DNA from: an uncultured Candidatus Saccharibacteria bacterium
GTDB taxonomy: Bacteria; Patescibacteriota; Saccharimonadia; Saccharimonadales; Saccharimonadaceae
NCBI GenBank assembly: GCA_945872155.1
Contig: CAMBYK010000004.1
Location: forward strand, 1-34,896
Direction: 5' to 3'
Length of the DNA: 34,896 nt
A program made the position numbers and the translations under genes. Positions 18,876 through 34,896 of the stretch are shown here, piece by piece (position 1 is the stretch's first letter; each line of letters opens with the position of its first letter). The notes under the pieces are model-generated. The model saw only the letters and a list, made by a program, of their open reading frames with translations, was not told the origin of the DNA and did no database searches.

Positions 18876-20402
18876 TTATGGAGCGGCGAGGCAGCGGATG
18901 GGTAGGCCGTATCCTCTAGGGGAGCTCTTTTGTAGGTTAATAGTGCTGCCGCTGTTCACTAATGAATATGGGAGAGTCCCAGCCCATGTATATCCCTGGG
19001 TGCCACGATCGCTCCATGAGCTGCCGGGGATATACCTGCCAGCACGAACAAATGAGAATGGACTTTGGGTGTCAGTTCCAGCGGCGCTGTTGGGCAGTCC
19101 GTATGCGGTGAGTAGTTCATCGAAAGACCGACTCATGGTGTTTCTTGGTAGCTGCCAACCTTTGGGGCAGAATGAGTCTGCTGCCTTACCGATAGTCGTG
19201 CTGGTTATAGTGCTCCCAGAGAGGCTTCTGGCACCGGCCGAGGCCATTGTCCAGTCGTAATAATTGCCAGCGGATTCGGTAAGTTTGCCGGTGCTTGATG
19301 GTGTAGTACCGTTTCGATAGTATTCGTATCCTGCTTCTGGTTCTACAAAATGCGGTCCATCTTTGCCGTTTATGTCCCAATTTGCTCCTGGTGCGCTCGC
19401 TCCTGGTGCTGTAAAATATCTGCCGCTATTGATGTAAGTGTCGGCAATGCTGAATTCCTGGCCTGCGCTGGGGGAGAAAGCAAGATTTTGTACCATCCAG
19501 CAATTGCCGTCGGCGAGCTTGCGAATAACATATTTTTTGTTGTCGCGGCTGTCTGTTAGGGTTGCCTCCGGCACTAAATTGCGATCTGAGGATGTGGTTT
19601 TGGTAGTGTCTGATACTATTTGATTAGAGGCGTCGCCGTCTTTGAATGCATAAGGAGTGGTTTCGGCGTTGCAGATTCTTGCGGTCATTGATTGCATGGA
19701 GATAATACCATTGAAAGTTGGGGTTTTCCCATTTCGAGCGACGCAACGAATTGAAGCGCCGTTGTTTTTATCATTGTCGTAAGCATAATCAACTTCGCTT
19801 GTGGACACTTTGAGGATGCTGGCTGTGTTTCCTGGGGCGTGGGCAGGAGCGACACAGGAAACTCTGATTTGATTAGTGGTGTGGTCGGTGATAAGTGCTC
19901 TTGGGTTAGCACAGATATTTTCGGCGGTTTCGGTGTCACCGACATAGACTTTTATTTCGTCGAGATCGGAATCTAGAGTGTGCAGGGGTGTGTTAATTTC
20001 TATTTCGGTGTCCGGGCTCGTGATGGTGCTTGGCGTGACGGTAAGTGCTTCTGTGACTGGACCGTTGGATAGTGCGGAATATTTTATGTTGCCGGAATAG
20101 CTACCGGCTGCAAGATCGAAGTTAATGCGAGCTCCGTAATGAACATCTAGGGTGGAGATTTCGGGGACGCCGTATTCTGAAGACATGATTACATTTGGAT
20201 TGTTTGAGAGTGGAACGGACTGGAATTTATAGTTGGCAACCTCTCCGGCGGTTGGAGTAGTGCTACTGACGGAGTATCCCCATTGGTTAGGCGCGAGTGG
20301 CAAGGGGTTTGTAACGGAGCCTGTGGCTGGGGCGATAAAATGAGGGCTGGTTGAATCGCCGTCTTTATAAAGGCGGTTGCCATTTTCGAGATTGTTGTTC
20401 AT
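18876..20402 (-). CDS. FISUMP-domain surface protein, main part after a frameshift
   Basis: Open frame of 508 codons with a C-terminal FISUMP domain (about 285-508). Features of that domain seen here: TLTDSRDNKKYVIRKLADG, NCWMVQNLAF, YDWTMASAG, FCPKGWQLPR and the final GYGLPIRCLAAP. The N-terminal two-thirds is Thr/Ser/Asn-rich beta-type sequence. FISUMP proteins are cell-surface proteins common in Fibrobacteres and Saccharibacteria. The ATG at 20402 has no Shine-Dalgarno site or promoter, and no signal peptide follows it. Upstream in the same frame the sequence stays protein-like back to about 20450, where it joins the frame of the 20416-20655 segment if one A is removed from a run of four. 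So the 508-codon frame is probably not the natural gene. Confidence 0.75.
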   Translation of the reverse strand: MNNNLENGNRLYKDGDSTSPHFIAPATGSVTNPLPLAPNQWGYSVSSTTPTAGEVANYKFQSVPLSNNPNVIMSSEYGVPEISTLDVHYGARINFDLAAGSYSGNIKYSALSNGPVTEALTVTPSTITSPDTEIEINTPLHTLDSDLDEIKVYVGDTETAENICANPRALITDHTTNQIRVSCVAPAHAPGNTASILKVSTSEVDYAYDNDKNNGASIRCVARNGKTPTFNGIISMQSMTARICNAETTPYAFKDGDASNQIVSDTTKTTSSDRNLVPEATLTDSRDNKKYVIRKLADGNCWMVQNLAFSPSAGQEFSIADTYINSGRYFTAPGASAPGANWDINGKDGPHFVEPEAGYEYYRNGTTPSSTGKLTESAGNYYDWTMASAGARSLSGSTITSTTIGKAADSFCPKGWQLPRNTMSRSFDELLTAYGLPNSAAGTDTQSPFSFVRAGRYIPGSSWSDRGTQGYTWAGTLPYSLVNSGSTINLQKSSPRGYGLPIRCLAAP

Positions 20403-24668: not shown

Positions 24669-25898
24669 TTAAAGTTTACTTTTGAAATCTTCAATTGTCA
24701 ACCAATTTGTGGTGCCATTTTGGCGGGAGGTGATTTCGAGTTGGTGGTTGGCGAGGGTTTTGTCGCTAATGACAACACGATAAGGTATACCGAGCAGTTC
24801 GCTATCGGTGAATTTTTGGCCAGGTCGAAGGTCGCGGTCGTCTAGCAGAATGAGCTCGGGGTTTTGCTGGTGCAGTTCGGCGGCAATTTTTTCGCCCTGT
24901 TCGCCGATGCCCACTACGTAGTATTGGTATGGGGCGATATTTTCTGGCCAGACGAGACCTTTTTCGTCGGCGAATTTTTCTACGATTACGCCCATGACAC
25001 GAGAGACGCCAATACCATAGCAGCCCATATAAACATTTTGGCGTTGGCCAGTTTGGTCGGTGAAGCTGAGCTCGAGCGGAGCGGAAAACTTATGACCAAG
25101 GGTGAAGATATTGCCGACTTCAGCAGCGCGGGCAGACTGGAGCTCGGAATGCTCGACCCCGAGATCTTGCAAAACGGCATCGTTTAAGACTTCTTCGTTG
25201 ATGACGACAGATTTATCAGCGTTGAAATAGACGGTATCTTCGCCGACTGGCAGTAGAGTTTGATATTCGTGGCTGTATTTTGAGAAGGCACCGCCCGAGG
25301 CGAAGGTCTTGAAAGTGCAGTCGCCGAGGCCGAGCCTTTGGTAGATTTTGGCATAGGCTTGCTCGACTTTTTGGTAATAGGCCTGGTGGCTAGCTTCGTC
25401 GGTAGTGAAACTGTAGAGGTCTTTCATTAAGAATTCGCGAGTGCGCAAGATACCGGATTTGGCACGTAATTCGTTGCGGAATTTGGTTTGGAATTGGTAA
25501 ACGAACAAGGGGAGGTCTTTGTAGCTAGAAATGTATTTGCGCAAGAGGTTGGTGATAGGTTCTTCGTGGGTGGGAGCCAGGCCGAGCTCACCGCCAGATT
25601 TGAGTGGGGTTTTGAACCAAACGTCAATCACTTGATCGTCAAAACGGCCGGTTTTTTGCCAAGGACCAGCATTTTGCAAAGCGGTCATTTGGATTTCTTG
25701 CCCGTCGATGGCGTTGATTTCTTGGCGGATAATCTCAGTGATGCGATTTAAGACGCGTAGTCCGAGTGGAAGATAGCTGTAGACTCCGGCCATTTCTTTG
25801 TTGATGTAGCCAGCTTTAATTAAAAGTTGGGCATTTTTGGCGGTTTCGTCTTGAGAAACTTCGCGGAGAGTTTTGGTGAAGGATTGACTTAATTTCAT
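24669..25898 (-). CDS. proS: Prolyl-tRNA synthetase, short form without editing domain
   Basis: Class II ProRS of 409 aa. The catalytic core is complete: LGLAPTHEEPITNLLRKYISSYKDLP, motif 2 FRNELRAKSGILRTREFLMKDLYSF, motif 3 region YMGCYGIGVSRVMG, and the C-terminal anticodon domain (about 310-409). The insertion domain of about 180 residues that usually lies between motifs 2 and 3 and edits Ala-tRNA(Pro) is missing, so the enzyme is short like alphaproteobacterial ProRS. The start codon overlaps the stop of the CPBP gene (TAATG), and an extended -10 (TGATACAAT) also ends 7 bases before it, so proS may be read both from the operon and from its own leaderless transcript. Confidence 0.95.
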   Translation of the reverse strand: MKLSQSFTKTLREVSQDETAKNAQLLIKAGYINKEMAGVYSYLPLGLRVLNRITEIIRQEINAIDGQEIQMTALQNAGPWQKTGRFDDQVIDVWFKTPLKSGGELGLAPTHEEPITNLLRKYISSYKDLPLFVYQFQTKFRNELRAKSGILRTREFLMKDLYSFTTDEASHQAYYQKVEQAYAKIYQRLGLGDCTFKTFASGGAFSKYSHEYQTLLPVGEDTVYFNADKSVVINEEVLNDAVLQDLGVEHSELQSARAAEVGNIFTLGHKFSAPLELSFTDQTGQRQNVYMGCYGIGVSRVMGVIVEKFADEKGLVWPENIAPYQYYVVGIGEQGEKIAAELHQQNPELILLDDRDLRPGQKFTDSELLGIPYRVVISDKTLANHQLEITSRQNGTTNWLTIEDFKSKL

Positions 25899-26608
25899 TA
25901 AAAGGATTGTATCATAAAGAAGAGGAAATAAAAACCGAGGGCGTTTTTGAGCATATGAAGAAAAATACCGCTATAAACGGTGCCGGTGATTTCGCGTAGG
26001 CCGCACATGATCAAGCTCATGACACAAACGGTGATACCAACATTGAGTTGGCCGTGCAGGATGCCAAAGAGAAGAGAAACTAGTAGAGCGGCAGGGAGGA
26101 AGCTGAGATGGTTGCGAAGCTTGCCGTAGAGCCAGCCGCGGAAGAGAATTTCTTCGACGATGGGGGCGACAACGACTAGGGCGAAGAAAGCGGCGATTTT
26201 GTCAGCGGAGCTGCCGAGATTGGAAAAGCCGACATTTTGGGCTTGAGTGGCGTTGTACCAAGAGAAGAGTGAAAAAAGTGCAGAAATCGCGGTGGAAACG
26301 ACGAGAGAGGCAATGAGGCCGATAGGCGCAAGACCGAGGTCGGTCCAGGTAGGAAGATTGGCGAGGCCGAGCTCTTCCCTGTCGGTCTGAAGCTTGCGAT
26401 TGAGCTTGGTGGGAAGTTTGATGGTGAGAAAAAGCGCTAAGGAAAAAGAGATGGCGATGATGATGGTGGTCCAGATGGGGTTGCTGGCTGATTTGCCTAC
26501 AAAAAAGGTGACAATGAGAGCTACGAGTAGCTGAGCTGCTATGACTATGAATCCAATCCAGAGGGCGAGAGCCAGGTAATGGAGGAAATTTTTGGTGCGG
26601 GTTTTCAT
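25898..26608 (-). CDS. CPBP family intramembrane metalloprotease
   Basis: Multi-pass membrane protein of 236 aa. The CPBP/Rce1 motifs are intact: EExxxR as E152-E153-R157 (VEEILFRG), H185 in LLFGILHGQ, and HxxxN as H218 and N222 (FLHMLKNAL), which together form the metal site. About seven membrane segments are likely. Bacterial members act in protein processing, bacteriocin self-protection or surface-protein maturation; the substrate is not known here. Its start overlaps the rseP stop (ATGA) and its stop overlaps the proS start (TAATG), so it is wedged into the classical rseP-proS pair. Confidence 0.88.
   Translation of the reverse strand: MKTRTKNFLHYLALALWIGFIVIAAQLLVALIVTFFVGKSASNPIWTTIIIAISFSLALFLTIKLPTKLNRKLQTDREELGLANLPTWTDLGLAPIGLIASLVVSTAISALFSLFSWYNATQAQNVGFSNLGSSADKIAAFFALVVVAPIVEEILFRGWLYGKLRNHLSFLPAALLVSLLFGILHGQLNVGITVCVMSLIMCGLREITGTVYSGIFLHMLKNALGFYFLFFMIQSF
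25906..25914 (-). promoter_or_regulatory. Extended -10 box for proS inside the CPBP gene
   Basis: TGATACAAT on the minus strand, ending 7 bases before the proS ATG at 25898. Confidence 0.45.
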
Positions 26609-28624: not shown

Positions 28625-29167
28625 CTAGATTTTCATGATTTCGGCTTCTTTGGCTTTGAAGTCGGTATCGATTTTTTCGACGAATTCTTTGGTGAGGTCG
28701 TCGATTTCTTTTTCGGCGCGAGCTTTAGGATCTTCAGGGAGCTCGGCGGATTTGATGTCTTTTCGGGCATCTTCGCGGACGCCACGGATGGCGACTTTAG
28801 CTTCCTCAACCTTATTGCTGGTGGTTTTGACAATTTCGCGGCGGCGTTCTTCGGTGAGTGGGGGAATAGGCACGCGGATGACGCGGCCGTCATCTGAAGG
28901 GTTAAGCCCGAGCGTGACGTCAGCGCGGATGGCGGCAGAGATGTTTTGGATGGTGGCAGGATCGAATGGGGTGACAAGCAACATGGTGCCATCTTGAGCG
29001 GTGACATTGGCAATTTGGTTGAGCGGCATATATTGACCGTAAGCTTCGGCCTTGACGCTGGCTAGCATGTCTGGGTGGGCACGGCCGGTACGCACTTTGG
29101 CGAGTTCGGATTTGAAGCGAGCAAGGACGGCGTCCATAGCTTCGCGGTATTCAGTGATATCAAACAT
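28625..29167 (-). CDS. frr: Ribosome recycling factor
   Basis: Ribosome recycling factor of 180 aa that, with EF-G, splits post-termination ribosomes. It has the usual two-domain layout: helix I with LARFKSELAKVRTGRAHPDML, the beta domain with QIANVTAQDGTMLLVTPFD, NPSDDGRVIRVPIPPLTEERRRE, and the long C-terminal helices. The ATG at 29167 is preceded by GGAG at about 8 bases and a short leader with TATTAT further up, so this gene uses a Shine-Dalgarno start. Its usual upstream neighbour pyrH is missing; a surface-protein cassette lies there instead. Confidence 0.96.
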   Translation of the reverse strand: MFDITEYREAMDAVLARFKSELAKVRTGRAHPDMLASVKAEAYGQYMPLNQIANVTAQDGTMLLVTPFDPATIQNISAAIRADVTLGLNPSDDGRVIRVPIPPLTEERRREIVKTTSNKVEEAKVAIRGVREDARKDIKSAELPEDPKARAEKEIDDLTKEFVEKIDTDFKAKEAEIMKI

Positions 29168-29228: not shown

Positions 29229-31391
29229 TTAGGGTTGTAGCCACATGGCTTGGTTGTTCGCGTTCATAATGAGAAATTCGCGCACTTCTTCTAGCGAAAG
29301 ATATTCTGAAAGGATTTTGGCTTCGGCTAAACGGAAACCGTCAAACCATTCGCGTGGGATGATATCGTTGAAGGCGCTATAGTCATAGAGATTGTTGGGG
29401 TCTTTGATGAGCTGTTCGCGGATGGCGGGCCATTTCATCTTGCCTTCAAAGCCGTAAGGATTACCTAGGGCGACTTTGCCGTCGGTGGTGACAAAGCCGT
29501 TAGAGATGATGTTGTGGTATTTGACAGACATGACGTGATAATAATGAACTCGTTGCTTGATATGTTCGATCTTGGTGACCGTTACGGGGACGGCGTCATT
29601 GTTTACGACTTTATAGACGATCATCCCCTCTTTGAATTCGTCCGGGTTAGAAACATCGACATAACGATTTAAATCAACGCTGAAAATACCGTGGTCGCCG
29701 ACTACGCCAAGAGTACTACCATCGGAAAAAGTGATTTTTTGGTAAGAATAGGCGGTGCCGGCTTTTTCAATCCAAATAGGGTCTGCAGCGTCTGTGGTGT
29801 CGGTTTCGTGGTTCCAGACTAGAAGCTTATCATTATAGCCGATTGATTCAATGGGTTTTTCGGTGCCGTTGGCGAGACGAACTATAGTGCCTTCGAGTAG
29901 GCACGAGCCGCCGACAGAAGTAGCTGTGATAGTGAGGTTTCCGGTGACGTTTTGGATAGAAAAGTAGCCGATGTAATTGGTGACGGTATAAGTGTAGCGG
30001 GAGGGCGGAAGAGTGGTGCCCTCCATAGTTACTTCAATACTAGGCGGAGCAGAATAGCGGTTGGAGGTGGGTTTGAGTGTTGAAGAATAATTGGCGCCAT
30101 GGCGCACAGTGTTGCCTCCTGAGCCCGTGAGGCCGCTGAGATTGTGCGTGACTTGATAAAGCCAATTGAACATATCTTGAGGAGATAAAGCAGCTGGCCC
30201 AGGCGCAGTAGTAGCGGCATTGATTTGAGCCTGAGTGGCGGTGTTACCGGCGACATCTTTGCCATAAACCAAGAAAGTGTAAGTCCCGTCGGTGAGCCCA
30301 GTAATGGCGAGGCTGTTGCTACTGCCTGGCGCGGTAAGGGTTTTGACTAGGCTGCGATTGCCATTAACCACGCGATAGACGAGGATGGTGAAATTAGTGA
30401 TGGTGCTGTCGTCGGTGGCCATCCAGTTGAGATTGACTAGGCCATCGGTGTTACCGCGGTAGGCGTAAACTTTGCTGATAATCGGAGCGGTGCTGTCTTG
30501 GTTGGCAGTGTTTTGAGTGACGGTGACAGAGATTGAGCCGCATTTGATATTGCCGCCATTTGCTGGACGGATAAAGACAGTGGCATAAGCGAGATTGGAG
30601 TTAAAAAGGGCGCCGGGAATACGTTGTAATTTAACTGGAAAGGCGGTGGTGGCTCCGGCATTAATATTGAAACTTGAGGTGGCAGAATTGTTGGGATTGA
30701 GAAGCCGGAATTTAGAGCTATCGACAACGGAAACCGTGAAGCTTTTTCCTACAGTGTAAGAATTTACTACGTTGATATTGATGCTGGACTCGGTGGTGTT
30801 GCCACTGAGGTTGGCTGTTGTGGGCTGAACGCTGCAGAGGAGGTTCCCGGTGTTAGTAGTGTCAAGTTCGATGAAATAATCGTTATCAACTATGAATGTG
30901 TAGCCGGCATATTCGGTAGTAGAAAAATTAATATTGACGGTAAAGATTTTGCTGCCGTTTATGGGTAAAGTTTCGCCTTCACTGACGCCGGCTACCGTGT
31001 AATTTAGCGATTCGGGAGCAATTGCTACGTGAACGTTGTTCTGTAGGGCATATATGGTGGGGGTCCAATCAGGTAGAGCAAAAGTATAGTCGGTGAAACT
31101 GTGGTTTTCGACGGTAATTCGAAAAGAGGCATTGCCGGAATTTTGGAGAAATTTAAGATTAAAATCGACGCTCTGGGGTTGCCAAGTGGGCTGAAGAGTG
31201 TTGTCAATGTTGGTACCGCTAATGCGAGCGACGTTGGTGATGCCGACTTCGCCTGGAGCCGCAAGTCCTACGGTGCCATTAAGTTCGAGAATGCGGCCGA
31301 AGATGGCAAAACCAGTGGTCATGCTTGCTAAAATAGCAACCATTATTAAGGAGAGAAGGTTAATTTTATTCCATCTAAACGGCTGTTTCAT
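29229..31391 (-). CDS. Large secreted protein with Fn3-like and Hint (autoprocessing) domains
   Basis: Surface protein of 720 aa. An N-terminal signal/anchor (about 11-32) is followed by TTGFAIFGRILELNGTV, the same pattern as in the 33623-34204 protein and as SipW-dependent secreted proteins. Two beta domains follow (about 45-295), then an Fn3-like domain (302-395, STAPIISKVYAYRG to GTYTFLVYGKDVAGN), a Ser/Thr-rich region, and a Hint domain. Hint features: C497 starting SCLLEGTIVRLANGTEKPIE, H567 in GVVGDHGIF, and block F YYHVMSVKYHNIISNGF (617-633). A unique tail of about 85 residues follows. The normal intein C-terminal Asn plus Cys/Ser/Thr junction is not seen, so cleavage rather than splicing is expected. 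The start at 31391 lies one base after the previous stop. Confidence 0.8.
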   Translation of the reverse strand: MKQPFRWNKINLLSLIMVAILASMTTGFAIFGRILELNGTVGLAAPGEVGITNVARISGTNIDNTLQPTWQPQSVDFNLKFLQNSGNASFRITVENHSFTDYTFALPDWTPTIYALQNNVHVAIAPESLNYTVAGVSEGETLPINGSKIFTVNINFSTTEYAGYTFIVDNDYFIELDTTNTGNLLCSVQPTTANLSGNTTESSININVVNSYTVGKSFTVSVVDSSKFRLLNPNNSATSSFNINAGATTAFPVKLQRIPGALFNSNLAYATVFIRPANGGNIKCGSISVTVTQNTANQDSTAPIISKVYAYRGNTDGLVNLNWMATDDSTITNFTILVYRVVNGNRSLVKTLTAPGSSNSLAITGLTDGTYTFLVYGKDVAGNTATQAQINAATTAPGPAALSPQDMFNWLYQVTHNLSGLTGSGGNTVRHGANYSSTLKPTSNRYSAPPSIEVTMEGTTLPPSRYTYTVTNYIGYFSIQNVTGNLTITATSVGGSCLLEGTIVRLANGTEKPIESIGYNDKLLVWNHETDTTDAADPIWIEKAGTAYSYQKITFSDGSTLGVVGDHGIFSVDLNRYVDVSNPDEFKEGMIVYKVVNNDAVPVTVTKIEHIKQRVHYYHVMSVKYHNIISNGFVTTDGKVALGNPYGFEGKMKWPAIREQLIKDPNNLYDYSAFNDIIPREWFDGFRLAEAKILSEYLSLEEVREFLIMNANNQAMWLQP

Positions 31392-31392
31392 G

Positions 31393-32463
31393 TTAAAAAT
31401 TTTGGCTCCAGTTTTCGCCGCGTTCACTGTGGAGAAAATCGGATTTGCGGATGACGAAGCGCCAAATCATTTCGTCGTTGATGATTATAAAAACACTTTC
31501 ATTGGTTTTTTCGATGTAATTGATGGGGATTTTGGTGGCGGTCCAGACATCAACGAGTTCTTCAAAAGTTTTAACGTCAACAATTTTGGTTTTGGTAATT
31601 TTGGGCTCACTTTCTAGACTGATAATCATCTCGTCGTAATCTTCTAGGATTTTGTTGACGGTGAGGCTATAAAGAAATTTTTTTCTTTCACGACGCATGG
31701 CGAGGAAAATATATAAAATATAGAAAATAGAACAACAGAAGATAGCGATGCCGCCAAATTTAAAGACGAGGAGGATTTCAGCGCGGTTAGCTTTTTCGAT
31801 TAGAAGATTGCCATGGTTGTTTTTAGCGTTGGTGTTGGCTTCGGCTTCGATAGCGAGCTGAGATAGTGGAACGGTAAGAGAGATATTGGAGTTGATAATG
31901 AGAGGTTTCTCGGAGAGGTGATTTTTGACTTCTCCTTTGACGATCATTTTGATATCGAGTTTGCCGTCGGCGGCGAGATTGTATTGTTCTTTGAAATTAT
32001 TGAGTAAGTCATTATATTTTTGATAATCGACTTTGAGATTTTTGGCAATGTTGACTTTTTTGGCATTTTTAACTGGCAGGATTTGCTCGTCACTGAGTGG
32101 AAATTCTTTCTCCCAATAAGTGCCGGAAGCTTCGTTGGCTTTATTGGCGCTAATGTTGGCTAGTAATCGATAGGTGTAGGTGCCGGTCATTTGTTCAGTA
32201 AAGTTGATGTTATAGGTGAAGTCGATGTCAAAATAATCAATCAAATTAGTGATATAGGTTTTATTCATGCCAATTGACGGCGTTTCAAAGAAGTTATTAT
32301 CTTTAAGAAAGACTTGATATTTGAGGTCGTTTTTTTCTTGATATTCGATAGAGATATTTTTGTTACTGGTCCAACTGAAAAAGGAAATAAGTGCGGCTAT
32401 GACTATAAAGAAGCCGGCGATAAGAATTTTGATAGTATATTTTTTACGATTGAAATTTTGCAT
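31393..32463 (-). CDS. DUF5305-like two-TM membrane protein
   Basis: Protein of 356 aa with a short cytosolic start, TM1 (about 11-31), an extracytoplasmic beta/alpha domain (about 32-225), TM2 (about 230-253), and a basic cytosolic domain of about 100 residues. Length, topology and the external part (YRLLANISANKANE, then TYWEKEFPLS) fit the DUF5305 family. Members of that family are found next to SipW-type signal peptidases in archaea and some bacteria. Function is unknown; a helper in surface-protein export or assembly is inferred from context. The start overlaps the signal peptidase stop by one base (TAATG). Confidence 0.65.
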   Translation of the reverse strand: MQNFNRKKYTIKILIAGFFIVIAALISFFSWTSNKNISIEYQEKNDLKYQVFLKDNNFFETPSIGMNKTYITNLIDYFDIDFTYNINFTEQMTGTYTYRLLANISANKANEASGTYWEKEFPLSDEQILPVKNAKKVNIAKNLKVDYQKYNDLLNNFKEQYNLAADGKLDIKMIVKGEVKNHLSEKPLIINSNISLTVPLSQLAIEAEANTNAKNNHGNLLIEKANRAEILLVFKFGGIAIFCCSIFYILYIFLAMRRERKKFLYSLTVNKILEDYDEMIISLESEPKITKTKIVDVKTFEELVDVWTATKIPINYIEKTNESVFIIINDEMIWRFVIRKSDFLHSERGENWSQNF

Positions 32464-33611
32464 TATTTTACCCCCTTAAAAAGGTCGTTGAGCCAAACTG
32501 TGGGATAGCCGATGAACTTACTGATAAGCTGGACTTTGCCAACCACTTCGGATTCTTTGACGAGCGAAGTATCTGGTTTAGGATTGGCGTCTCCTTTGGT
32601 GCGGAACAAGCGATGTTCTCCTTGTTGTTTAATTACTATCACCCGGTGAGTCACGATGATGCGATCGTGCCAAAAGACTAGAACGTCGCCAACTTTTATA
32701 TCGTCAGCAGGAACTTTTTCTAGTAGGACAGCATCGCCTCGACCATAAATTGGGGACATAGAATTGGGCATGACGGCAATGAGTTGATATTTGAAAATTC
32801 CAGAGACTAAGGCTGTGAGCACGATGAGCGTTATGACTACTGGGATGGTAAAAATTCTTGAACTGGTACGGCGTGTTAGATCAACGTCTTCATTATAACA
32901 CGAAATGGTTTTGCTAATTAATTTAAAAATGATGAAGGGGATAAGGACGCCAATGACGGCGAAAATGTAGTTCCCCAGATTGGGGGCGATAGGCAGAATG
33001 TAAAGATAGGTGGCGATAACGATTTTGAAAATAAAGCCTGGTAAGGCACCAAAGTGATAGCAAAGATAGGCAGCGAGTGCCTCGCGAGCGATGATTGGCA
33101 AAGCTAGGACACAGACGAAAACAAACCAATCCTCTGCCCCGGATAAAGTATATGGATTAAAAACAATAATAATATGCGCGATACTCATAAGTAGCGCAAA
33201 AATAATAGCAGGAAGTTTTTTCTCGGTGATTTTGTAAGTGAGCGAGTGTCGGAGGATCTCTTCGAATAGAACCACTAAGACTATTGGCAAAAAAACGACG
33301 AAGATATTGTGTGGGTTGGTGGAAAAATAGGAACGGTTGAATCCTAAAAAAATACCGAGAGTATAAATAATGACTCCGGTGGACATCATGACGATGGCTA
33401 TGGTGCGGATGGTACTCTTGAGTAGAAAATTTTTGTGAGGTCTTTTGAGCCCCAGCAAAGCCATGGCGATGGCGATAAAGACGGCTAGGCCGATGCTGAG
33501 TGCCCAGGTACGACCAGTGGTAGTCAGCTCGGTTGTGGCGAACGCGAAACGAGGGAGCAACAGTGCGATTGCTCCCTCAAGAAGATAGACAAGTTTAAGT
33601 TTGCCCTTCAT
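32463..33611 (-). CDS. SipW-like (ER-type) signal peptidase I with an extra multi-pass membrane domain
   Basis: Membrane protein of 382 aa. The C-terminal part (about 255-382) is a signal peptidase I of the ER/SipW type: S284 in MPNSMSPIYGRGD, H322 in VTHRVI instead of the bacterial Lys, and D341 in FRTKGDANPKPDTS. The N-terminal part (about 1-235) adds seven or so membrane segments. This region holds FEEILRHSL (E117, E118, R121), SIAHIII (H146) and CYHFGALPG (H186), a degenerate likeness of a CPBP protease core (EExxR in place of EExxxR). Bacterial SipW is usually about 190 aa, so this is a fusion or a very long form. It lies between two proteins with SipW-type N-termini, which are its likely substrates. 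Confidence 0.82.
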   Translation of the reverse strand: MKGKLKLVYLLEGAIALLLPRFAFATTELTTTGRTWALSIGLAVFIAIAMALLGLKRPHKNFLLKSTIRTIAIVMMSTGVIIYTLGIFLGFNRSYFSTNPHNIFVVFLPIVLVVLFEEILRHSLTYKITEKKLPAIIFALLMSIAHIIIVFNPYTLSGAEDWFVFVCVLALPIIAREALAAYLCYHFGALPGFIFKIVIATYLYILPIAPNLGNYIFAVIGVLIPFIIFKLISKTISCYNEDVDLTRRTSSRIFTIPVVITLIVLTALVSGIFKYQLIAVMPNSMSPIYGRGDAVLLEKVPADDIKVGDVLVFWHDRIIVTHRVIVIKQQGEHRLFRTKGDANPKPDTSLVKESEVVGKVQLISKFIGYPTVWLNDLFKGVK

Positions 33612-33622
33612 GTTCCTAGTGT

Positions 33623-34204
33623 TTACTGAGCCTGTTCGTATCCTAGAGTGGCGGTGAGACTGACGGTGACGTTTTCGTTTGGCAATTCGGCTTCACTAGA
33701 AGGAGTAATGTAAGTGGCCTTAACTTTGACTGGTTTGATATTGGTGCCGGTGGCAGCTGGTAAGGAGAAGTTTAGTCCGGTTTGGGAAGTGGTATAGGTG
33801 TTGCCTTCATAAGTTAGTTCATAAGTAAGATATTTTGATTGCGCGGTAGTGAGAGAGGAGAGCGTGATAGTTTTGAGCGTGGCATCGAAAGTACCATCAT
33901 TGATGACATTGATGGTGAAGGAATAGAAATCGCCTGGTTTTCTGAGTTCTGCTTTGTAGCTCATAGTGGTGTCGGCGATGGTTTTTTCGCTGGCGACCAC
34001 ACTGCCTGAATCTTCGGCGTAGCTAGAAGTGACAAAATGTACACTCCATTTGCTTTTGTCGACTTGGACTTGGCCGTTGATGCTAAGAGTTTGCGCGTAA
34101 AGGGCGAAACCGACAGACATAGTTAAAACTACTGCAGCGAGTGCGATCAGCAGGAATTTTTGCCGGTTTTGTTGTTGTTTTTTCTGTATTTTCTTTTTAG
34201 CCAT
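33623..34204 (-). CDS. SipW-dependent-type (TasA/camelysin-like) surface protein
   Basis: Small secreted protein of 193 aa. A very basic start (MAKKKIQKKQQQNRQK) precedes a hydrophobic segment (17-35), then SVGFALYAQTLSINGQVQV (30-48). This is the pattern of TasA/camelysin-type proteins, whose signal is cut by SipW. The rest is a beta-sandwich-like domain with FTINVINDGTFDATLKTITL typical of that group. TasA relatives form fibres or coat the cell; the same role here is inference. It is first in the four-gene cassette, has its own promoter, and is followed 11 bases later by the signal peptidase gene. Confidence 0.68.
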   Translation of the reverse strand: MAKKKIQKKQQQNRQKFLLIALAAVVLTMSVGFALYAQTLSINGQVQVDKSKWSVHFVTSSYAEDSGSVVASEKTIADTTMSYKAELRKPGDFYSFTINVINDGTFDATLKTITLSSLTTAQSKYLTYELTYEGNTYTTSQTGLNFSLPAATGTNIKPVKVKATYITPSSEAELPNENVTVSLTATLGYEQAQ

Positions 34205-34233: not shown

Positions 34234-34261
34234 ATAATAACATACATAAACATTTTGGCAA
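34234..34261 (-). promoter_or_regulatory. Promoter of the surface-protein cassette
   Basis: On the minus strand, -35 TTGCCA (34261-34256), 16-bp spacer, -10 TGT-TATTAT (TATTAT at 34239-34234), with a leader of about 29 bases to the ATG at 34204. No strong Shine-Dalgarno site. It separates the cassette from tsf. Confidence 0.6.
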
Positions 34262-34332
34262 TAGATAAATCGATATAAACTTATAGGGCTATAAAATTAA
34301 TAAAAAATATGAGAATATATTTGAGATAAATA

Positions 34333-34361
34333 AAAAATAGAGCCTGGAGACTCTATTTTTT
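34333..34361. terminator. Intrinsic terminator after tsf
   Basis: Stem AAAAATAGAG / CTCTATTTTT (34333-34342 with 34351-34360) around an 8-base loop, with A and T runs on both sides. It ends tsf transcription on the minus strand before the surface-protein cassette. Confidence 0.85.
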
Positions 34362-34375
34362 GTTTGGCAAACAGT

Positions 34376-34896
34376 TTATTCGGTGACGCCAAGCTCAATG
34401 CGTTTGAATTGGCGAACGGTGATGTTCTCGCCAGTTTTTGCGATTTGATCTTTGATAAATTCTGCAACAGTTTTGGTGTCGTCAAGAATGTATGGTTGGT
34501 TCAAAAGAACTTTGTCAGCAAAAGCTTTTTTGACTTGACCACCTAGAATTTGTTCTTTCATGTTTTCTGGACCTTTGAAGTTGGTCTCGAGTTCGCTCAT
34601 TTTAGCAGACATGATATCGGCTGGGATATCTTCTTCAGAAACATAAAGTGGCGCCATGCTAGCAATTTGCATAGCGATTTTGTGGGCCAAATCTTTGAAT
34701 TCGTCAGTTTTGGCAACGAAACTAGTTTCGCAGTTGACCTCAACGATAGCACCGAGGCGACCATCGTGAATGTAGCTTTCGATAACACCCTCACGAGTTT
34801 CGCGATCGCCGCGTTTTTCGGCCTTGGTGAGACCTTTTTTGCGCATAGCGTCGAGGGCTTTGTCGAAATCGCCGTTGGCTTCGACTAGGGCGACCT
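34376..34896 (-). CDS. tsf: Elongation factor Ts, 5' part cut by the window edge
   Basis: Guanine-nucleotide exchange factor for EF-Tu. The frame stays open to the right edge: codons upstream of the Met at 34846 read VALVEANGDFDKALDAM, which is EF-Ts sequence, so that Met is internal. Further features: RKKGLTKAEKRGDRETREG, the EF-Tu-contacting core VEVNCETSFVAKTDEFKDLAH, and IGGQ-like ILGGQVKKAFADKVLLNQPYI. About 173 codons are visible. Usually tsf follows rpsB and precedes pyrH and frr; here a terminator and the surface-protein cassette follow instead. Confidence 0.95.
   Translation of the reverse strand, partial: VALVEANGDFDKALDAMRKKGLTKAEKRGDRETREGVIESYIHDGRLGAIVEVNCETSFVAKTDEFKDLAHKIAMQIASMAPLYVSEEDIPADIMSAKMSELETNFKGPENMKEQILGGQVKKAFADKVLLNQPYILDDTKTVAEFIKDQIAKTGENITVRQFKRIELGVTE

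Follow-up and report, generated by a model that had tools for sequence, protein, structure and literature searches.

Two described operons are the closest comparison for the locus reported here. In tapA-sipW-tasA of Bacillus and sipW-bsaA of Clostridium perfringens, a dedicated archaeal-type signal peptidase is encoded between or beside the genes of its substrates, and BsaA of C. perfringens needs SipW (PMC7395162). TasA assembles by donor strand: each subunit lends the strand behind its signal peptide to the one that follows, and TapA has a strand like it (PMC9674648). How the surface structures with which ultrasmall Patescibacteria live on other cells are made is still an open question, to which type IV pili have so far been the main answer. 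The window analyzed here, a stretch of 34,896 nucleotides (contig CAMBYK010000004.1, positions 1 to 34,896) from an uncultured Candidatus Saccharibacteria bacterium (assembly GCA_945872155.1; source genome of 606 kb, 96% complete), carries a four-gene cassette that is a variant of these operons, with a DUF5305 protein, a composite signal peptidase and a partner protein bearing a Hint (intein/Hedgehog-fold) domain. Named genomes of the same genus come from ruminant guts and belong to Candidatus Saccharibacteria.

The four genes are tightly packed on the minus strand, where a first-pass annotation made from the DNA letters had placed them. Gene 1 (33623..34204) encodes a small exported protein of 193 amino acids (aa), the putative major fiber subunit, in the TasA position; gene 2 (32463..33611) encodes a 382-aa membrane protein in which a half with eight transmembrane segments (8-TM half) is fused to an S26B signal peptidase; gene 3 (31393..32463) encodes a 356-aa DUF5305 membrane protein; and gene 4 (29229..31427) encodes a 732-aa exported protein with an Ig/FN3-like ectodomain, a C-terminal Hint domain and a tail. 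Genes 1 and 2 are separated by 11 bp, genes 2 and 3 overlap by 1 bp, and genes 3 and 4 overlap by 35 bp. For gene 4, an ATG at 31391, immediately past the gene 3 stop, is a likelier start than the upstream GTG, from which its residues are numbered here. We favor, as somewhat better than an even bet, the reading that this locus is a horizontally shared fiber-export operon like tapA-sipW-tasA whose TapA-position protein self-cleaves at the Hint cysteine. The fiber itself, cleavage or transfer by the Hint domain and a possible role in cell contact are what we infer from the comparisons below, and the cassette is a candidate for a second kind of appendage in Patescibacteria.

A cassette shared by Saccharibacteria and Bacilli

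Do the four genes travel together? Complete cassettes with the same gene order were found at 13 loci including the window, and the 12 others fall into two phylum-level groups: seven in Saccharibacteria (L011/L067, L036/L068, L044, L047/L082, L051, L066 and L077) and five of the Bacilli/Mycoplasmatota type (L078, Bacilli, roe deer; L079, unclassified; L081, Tenericutes; L088, Erysipelotrichaceae; and L114). These loci were reached by several routes. Among 60 relatives, gene 2 had one full-length counterpart, at a locus (L011) where the other three genes are present too, in the order of the window. Of 393 genomes searched in the class, 22 matched a profile of the gene 4 C terminus, all within one family, and the neighborhoods of gene 4 C-terminus matches supplied L036, L044, L047 and L051. 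A scan of public genomes supplied L066, L077, L078, L079, L081 and L088, and 241 genomes from the order to which L088 belongs yielded L114, along with a locus seen in part (L111). DUF5305 turned up in only 4 of 380 genomes sampled across the phylum, each of them from this same taxonomic family, and always beside genes 1 and 2. Genes 1 to 3 are the core of the cassette and gene 4 is a frequent fourth member, because L063 has genes 1 to 3 only and L061/L062 has genes 2 and 3 with two copies of gene 1 and a further exported protein. The co-occurrence of the four genes beyond the window is thereby established, and the earlier proposal of a self-contained system for the export and processing of surface proteins is well supported.

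The 13 cassettes sit in differing chromosomal neighborhoods, and the genomes that bear them come mostly from animal guts. Patchy distribution together with sharing with Bacilli points to horizontal transfer of the cassette between phyla. Whether the Saccharibacteria cassettes share one origin was considered: in the tree they are interleaved with those of Bacilli, yet an approximately unbiased (AU) test does not reject a single Saccharibacteria clade (P = 0.124), so that one or several transfers, in either direction, may lie behind the pattern. Gene 4 had no match in a plasmid or a phage collection. The sharing with gut Bacilli implies that the genes of a surface machine traffic between phyla.

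Composite signal peptidase, DUF5305 protein and exported proteins

The last 140 residues of the gene 2 product (32466..32885, minus strand) form an S26B signal peptidase domain of the Ser-His-Asp type. Its Ser284, His322 and Asp341 are invariant in 10 sequences, with His in place of the bacterial Lys; the domain scores 98.6 bits against the archaeal-type model TIGR02228 (cutoff, 51.85), and its structure model resembles human SEC11 (7p2q; Z of 12.0). The Ser-His-Asp type assigned by the first-pass annotation, which is the archaeal/endoplasmic reticulum type, is thus borne out, and its label "SipW-like" is only loosely right: the domain is an archaeal-type S26B peptidase, but gene 2 scores 66.8 bits against the SipW equivalog NF046067, whose cutoff is 190, and has an extra 8-TM half. 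Peptidase domains related to this one are encoded on annotated plasmids, several of them beside genes named as TasA family or as having a SipW-dependent-type signal and one not.

The 8-TM half, which that annotation had overlooked, comprises the first ~240 residues (32895..33611, minus strand). Its model (predicted local distance difference test [pLDDT] of 76) has the eight-helix fold of Rce1 and SpdC (CPBP or ABI family), with Z of 13.6 to SpdC (6u0o, 222 residues) and 11.4 to Rce1 (4cad, 216 residues), above the Z of ~8.8 reached by unrelated helical proteins. Unlike those two proteins, this half is not matched by the Pfam Rce1-like family, has not kept the His motifs and is fused to a signal peptidase. 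Within the CPBP/Rce1 protease motifs, a single E118 and R121 are kept and the His motifs are not conserved; an EExxxR-type CPBP protease activity, suspected from the motif FEEILRH, was rejected, since the motif residues are not kept in relatives. Because the protease motifs are not conserved, we read the modeled half as probably a noncatalytic CPBP-like part that serves as a platform or in substrate handling. A signal peptidase and an Rce1-like membrane half are here joined in a single polypeptide, a combination by which the cassette, with its extra DUF5305 protein, departs from tapA-sipW-tasA and sipW-bsaA. The window also encodes a separate Rce1-like (PF02517) membrane protease at 25898 to 26608, a few kilobases downstream of the cassette, past frr, uppS and rseP.

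Gene 3 had been described as DUF5305-like, and it matches PF17231 (DUF5305) at 58.9 bits, above the cutoff of 29. Transmembrane segments at residues 7 to 34 and 228 to 259 leave a large part outside and a C-terminal part inside.

What does the peptidase cut? The first-pass annotation proposed a common N-terminal motif in the two exported proteins, and the motif holds in profile searches. The signal and donor-strand-like N terminus of gene 1 (MSVGFALYAQTLSINGQV; 34061..34204, minus strand) and that of gene 4 (MTTGFAIFGRILELNGTV; 31269..31391, minus strand) share GFAx(Y/F) and, behind it, a beta-type strand, an arrangement like that of the two tapA-sipW-tasA substrates with their common strand after the signal. 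A profile built on the N-terminal ~54 residues of the gene 1 family, run against the 671 proteins of the loci, finds the 17 Hint proteins of the cassette or SipW-signal type (independent E value of 0.005 for the window protein and 9e-9 for the best), 16 of which outrank the first unrelated protein (0.037), and it matches none of the 13 Hint proteins with a Sec signal. An aromatic residue stands two positions past the predicted cut (P2') in 13 of 15 proteins of the gene 1 set, that of the window included, and in 13 of 17 of the gene 4 set; in TasA (PMC10269814), a P2' aromatic goes with SipW over the general peptidase.

The curated SipW-signal model TIGR04088 matches neither genes 1 and 4 nor their relatives, whereas a classic substrate of the same genus matches it at 1.9e-9. 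As genes 1 and 4 differ in this from the classic TasA-like proteins of the genus, their signal is a distinct signal class. Such a classic set, a SipW-like peptidase with two TasA/CalY-like proteins, is present at L003 to L008 of the window's genus; two proteins of L004 score above the TIGR04088 cutoff, and the one tested from L003 scores below it. The gene 1 family itself (19 sequences) has weak DUF11/Ig-like matches and a conserved core, L-KPGD-F-N-G-DA. A match of gene 1 to archaeal AbpX was at chance level (E = 1.3) and was not used. Nothing in the literature searched joins Saccharibacteria with TasA and a signal peptidase.

Hint domain and tail of gene 4

The TapA-position protein is much larger than TapA and ends in a Hint domain (aa 509 to 650; 29478..29903, minus strand) and a tail of ~80 residues (aa 651 to 732; 29232..29477, minus strand), which forms helices in the model and is conserved in nearly all relatives. 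The Hint domain had also escaped the first-pass annotation. Single proteins of the gene 4 type give weak Hint/intein matches, and a profile of 22 sequences matches BIL2 of Tetrahymena BUBL1 (6y75) at E = 3e-12. The model of aa 499 to 732 (pLDDT of 90.6) resembles 84 PDB chains at a Z of at least 8; the matches listed are BIL domains, inteins and Hedgehog, with Z of 16.6 for 6y75 (BIL2), 16.3 for 4o1r (intein), 15.8 for 2lwy (BIL) and 15.1 for 1at0 (Hedgehog). The tail had no fold match in this comparison, in which no search was made with the tail alone, and this is not evidence of a new fold.

The catalytic residues at the N-terminal side of the domain are intact. Residue 11 of the model, the nucleophile Cys509, aligns with intein residue 1 and with C258 of Hedgehog; all 26 sequences compared have C509, the block-B His (H579) and N639, and C509 and H579 are also kept in all 22 members of a second set, three divergent ones among them. 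The other end, closing with T648-D649, is different: where an intein has His-Asn and a nucleophile, the window protein has T647-T648-D649-G650 (T at 648 in 26 of 26 sequences, D at 649 in 24 of 26, then G or D), and the intein C-terminal His-Asn followed by Cys, Ser or Thr is absent from the 26 sequences of the family. Protein splicing is hence not expected. The pattern of residues predicts a thioester at the N-terminal junction, which would be followed by release or transfer. In these respects gene 4 is like the BIL domains (Tetrahymena BUBL1 BIL2, 6y75/6tmm; Clostridium thermocellum, 2lwy), which combine the Hint fold with an N-terminal Cys and a block-B His in variable secreted proteins, but it has Thr-Asp for the C-terminal His-Asn and a conserved helical tail. 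The Hog domain of Hedgehog (1at0) likewise follows a secreted N-terminal part, has Cys at position 1, lacks splicing residues and carries an extra C-terminal region, whereas gene 4 encodes a bacterial surface protein for which no sterol is expected. The literature found on Saccharibacteria and inteins concerns rRNA insertions only.

Hint and tail are not confined to the cassette. They are also found on Sec-signal proteins of ~1,000 aa, some with a C-terminal membrane segment, and in RF39-like Bacilli they are fused to a type IV prepilin N terminus (GFTLIELLAVIVIL; L084:8542-9900, L085:8224-9897 and L086:2145-3806), so that the last three proteins are predicted self-cleaving pilins. Because Hint and tail recur on Sec-signal, prepilin-like and SipW-adjacent proteins, they have the look of a portable module, placed at the C terminus of surface proteins for their processing. 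Their presence on secreted fiber and pilin proteins yields a specific prediction, namely, self-cleavage or covalent transfer at one Cys.

The Sec-signal Hint proteins of L038 to L043 have a hydrophobic, membrane-segment-like stretch near the C terminus, past the tail, and Hint cleavage would therefore free their ectodomain from the membrane. A further link of Hint to SipW systems, of a third type, comes from a Bacilli locus (L118:2095-4969) in which the gene of a Sec-signal Hint protein adjoins those of a BsaA/TasA-like protein and a classic SipW peptidase. Just upstream of the complete cassette of L066, a 241-aa protein (L066:3769-4494) consists almost solely of Hint and tail and is possibly a stand-alone or leftover copy.

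In the fiber-export reading, the membrane peptidase would cut both precursors ahead of the aromatic-rich strand, with the CPBP-like half and the DUF5305 protein helping or placing it. The freed strands would let the 193-aa protein polymerize into a surface fiber by strand donation; on the pattern of TasA, gene 1 would supply the polymer and gene 4 a TapA-like partner for it, the large Ig-like protein standing at the base or tip of the fiber as TapA does to TasA. The Hint domain would activate the bond before Cys509 as a thioester, and this step would free the ectodomain from Hint and tail or pass it to a nucleophile, leaving a surface protein anchored or trimmed without a sortase. A bolder version, which we put forward tentatively and consider improbable, is Hedgehog-like anchoring: once the signal is cut off, Hint and tail would transfer the C terminus of a filament protein, through the Cys thioester, to a surface acceptor (lipid, glycan or amine), a covalent attachment independent of sortase, both on SipW-type fibers and on type IV pilins of episymbiotic Saccharibacteria and gut Bacilli. 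Were the transfer to take place, the Hedgehog trick would fix bacterial surface proteins without a sortase.

Several observations weigh against the fiber-export reading. Most relatives in the genus are without the cassette, which is therefore accessory. The first-pass term "fiber or coat" is carried by analogy with tapA-sipW-tasA and sipW-bsaA, whose substrate models (TIGR04088, TasA and BsaA) match none of the cassette substrates; homology of the 193-aa protein to TasA, CalY or BsaA by sequence was tested and not shown, with no NCBIfam or Pfam TasA match and an hhalign probability of 1.5% against the TasA-like set of the genus, so that gene 1 was dropped as a TasA homologue by sequence. It is on this gap that an adhesin reading builds, in which no polymer forms, the 193-aa protein serving as coat or carrier and the large Ig-like protein as an adhesin shed by Hint. 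The Ig/FN3-like matches of the gene 4 ectodomain are typical of adhesins, and Hint and tail are present on many nonfiber proteins with Sec signals; they are also on prepilins, however, the gene order mirrors tapA-sipW-tasA, and the N-terminal strand of gene 1 is conserved past the signal peptide and common to gene 4. Two separate adhesins are a possible but doubtful account of the locus.

The Hint domain could also be inactive, a degenerate fold retained for structural reasons. It has lost the splice residues at its C-terminal end, and in the window protein Val takes the place of the block-B Thr (aa 575) that 25 of 26 sequences have, a further point against self-cleavage there, for which reason this copy may be slower or degenerate. 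The invariance of C509 and H579 across phyla and in both sequence sets is unexpected for a purely structural domain, and inactivity of the fold seems to us unlikely. Far less probable still is a pretoxin-HINT role, with the domain releasing the tail as a toxin against neighboring cells. Polymorphic toxins are laid out in this way, with a C-terminal domain behind the Hint, and 2 of 22 members have PT-HINT among their Pfam matches; the tail, though, is one conserved family rather than a polymorphic one and recurs on pilins, the C-terminal cleavage residues are absent, and the next gene is frr, with no immunity-like gene following.

Insertion site and neighboring genes

The cassette lies between tsf (ending at 34376) and frr (starting at 29167), a position that the first-pass annotation described as the usual place of pyrH. 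This does not hold. Where tsf and frr could both be read in relatives, they are adjacent and have no pyrH between them, the usual order being rpsB-tsf-frr-uppS-rseP. The pyrH (UMP kinase) model had no match in the 96%-complete source genome (G000) and had matches in 14 of 14 control genomes. The cassette is an insertion between two adjacent housekeeping genes, and replacement of pyrH was rejected, as the relatives that could be read carry tsf and frr as neighbors without it.

The same annotation gave the cassette its own promoter and a terminator in front. A terminator-like hairpin with a 13-bp stem and a T-run, a match to consensus only, follows tsf in front of the cassette (34332..34361, minus strand). 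Upstream of gene 1 there is a promoter-like site, TTGCCA-16-TATTAT with a TG (34234..34261, minus strand; 10 of 12 matches), but such sites occur in the region at about chance frequency (13 found versus 10.5 in shuffles). The GC content of the cassette genes is near the window average, with the exception of gene 3 (37%). Elsewhere in the window, at 18876 to 20402, a 508-aa protein has a Fib_succ_major-like C-terminal domain that scores 33.5 bits, narrowly below the curated cutoff of 33.9.

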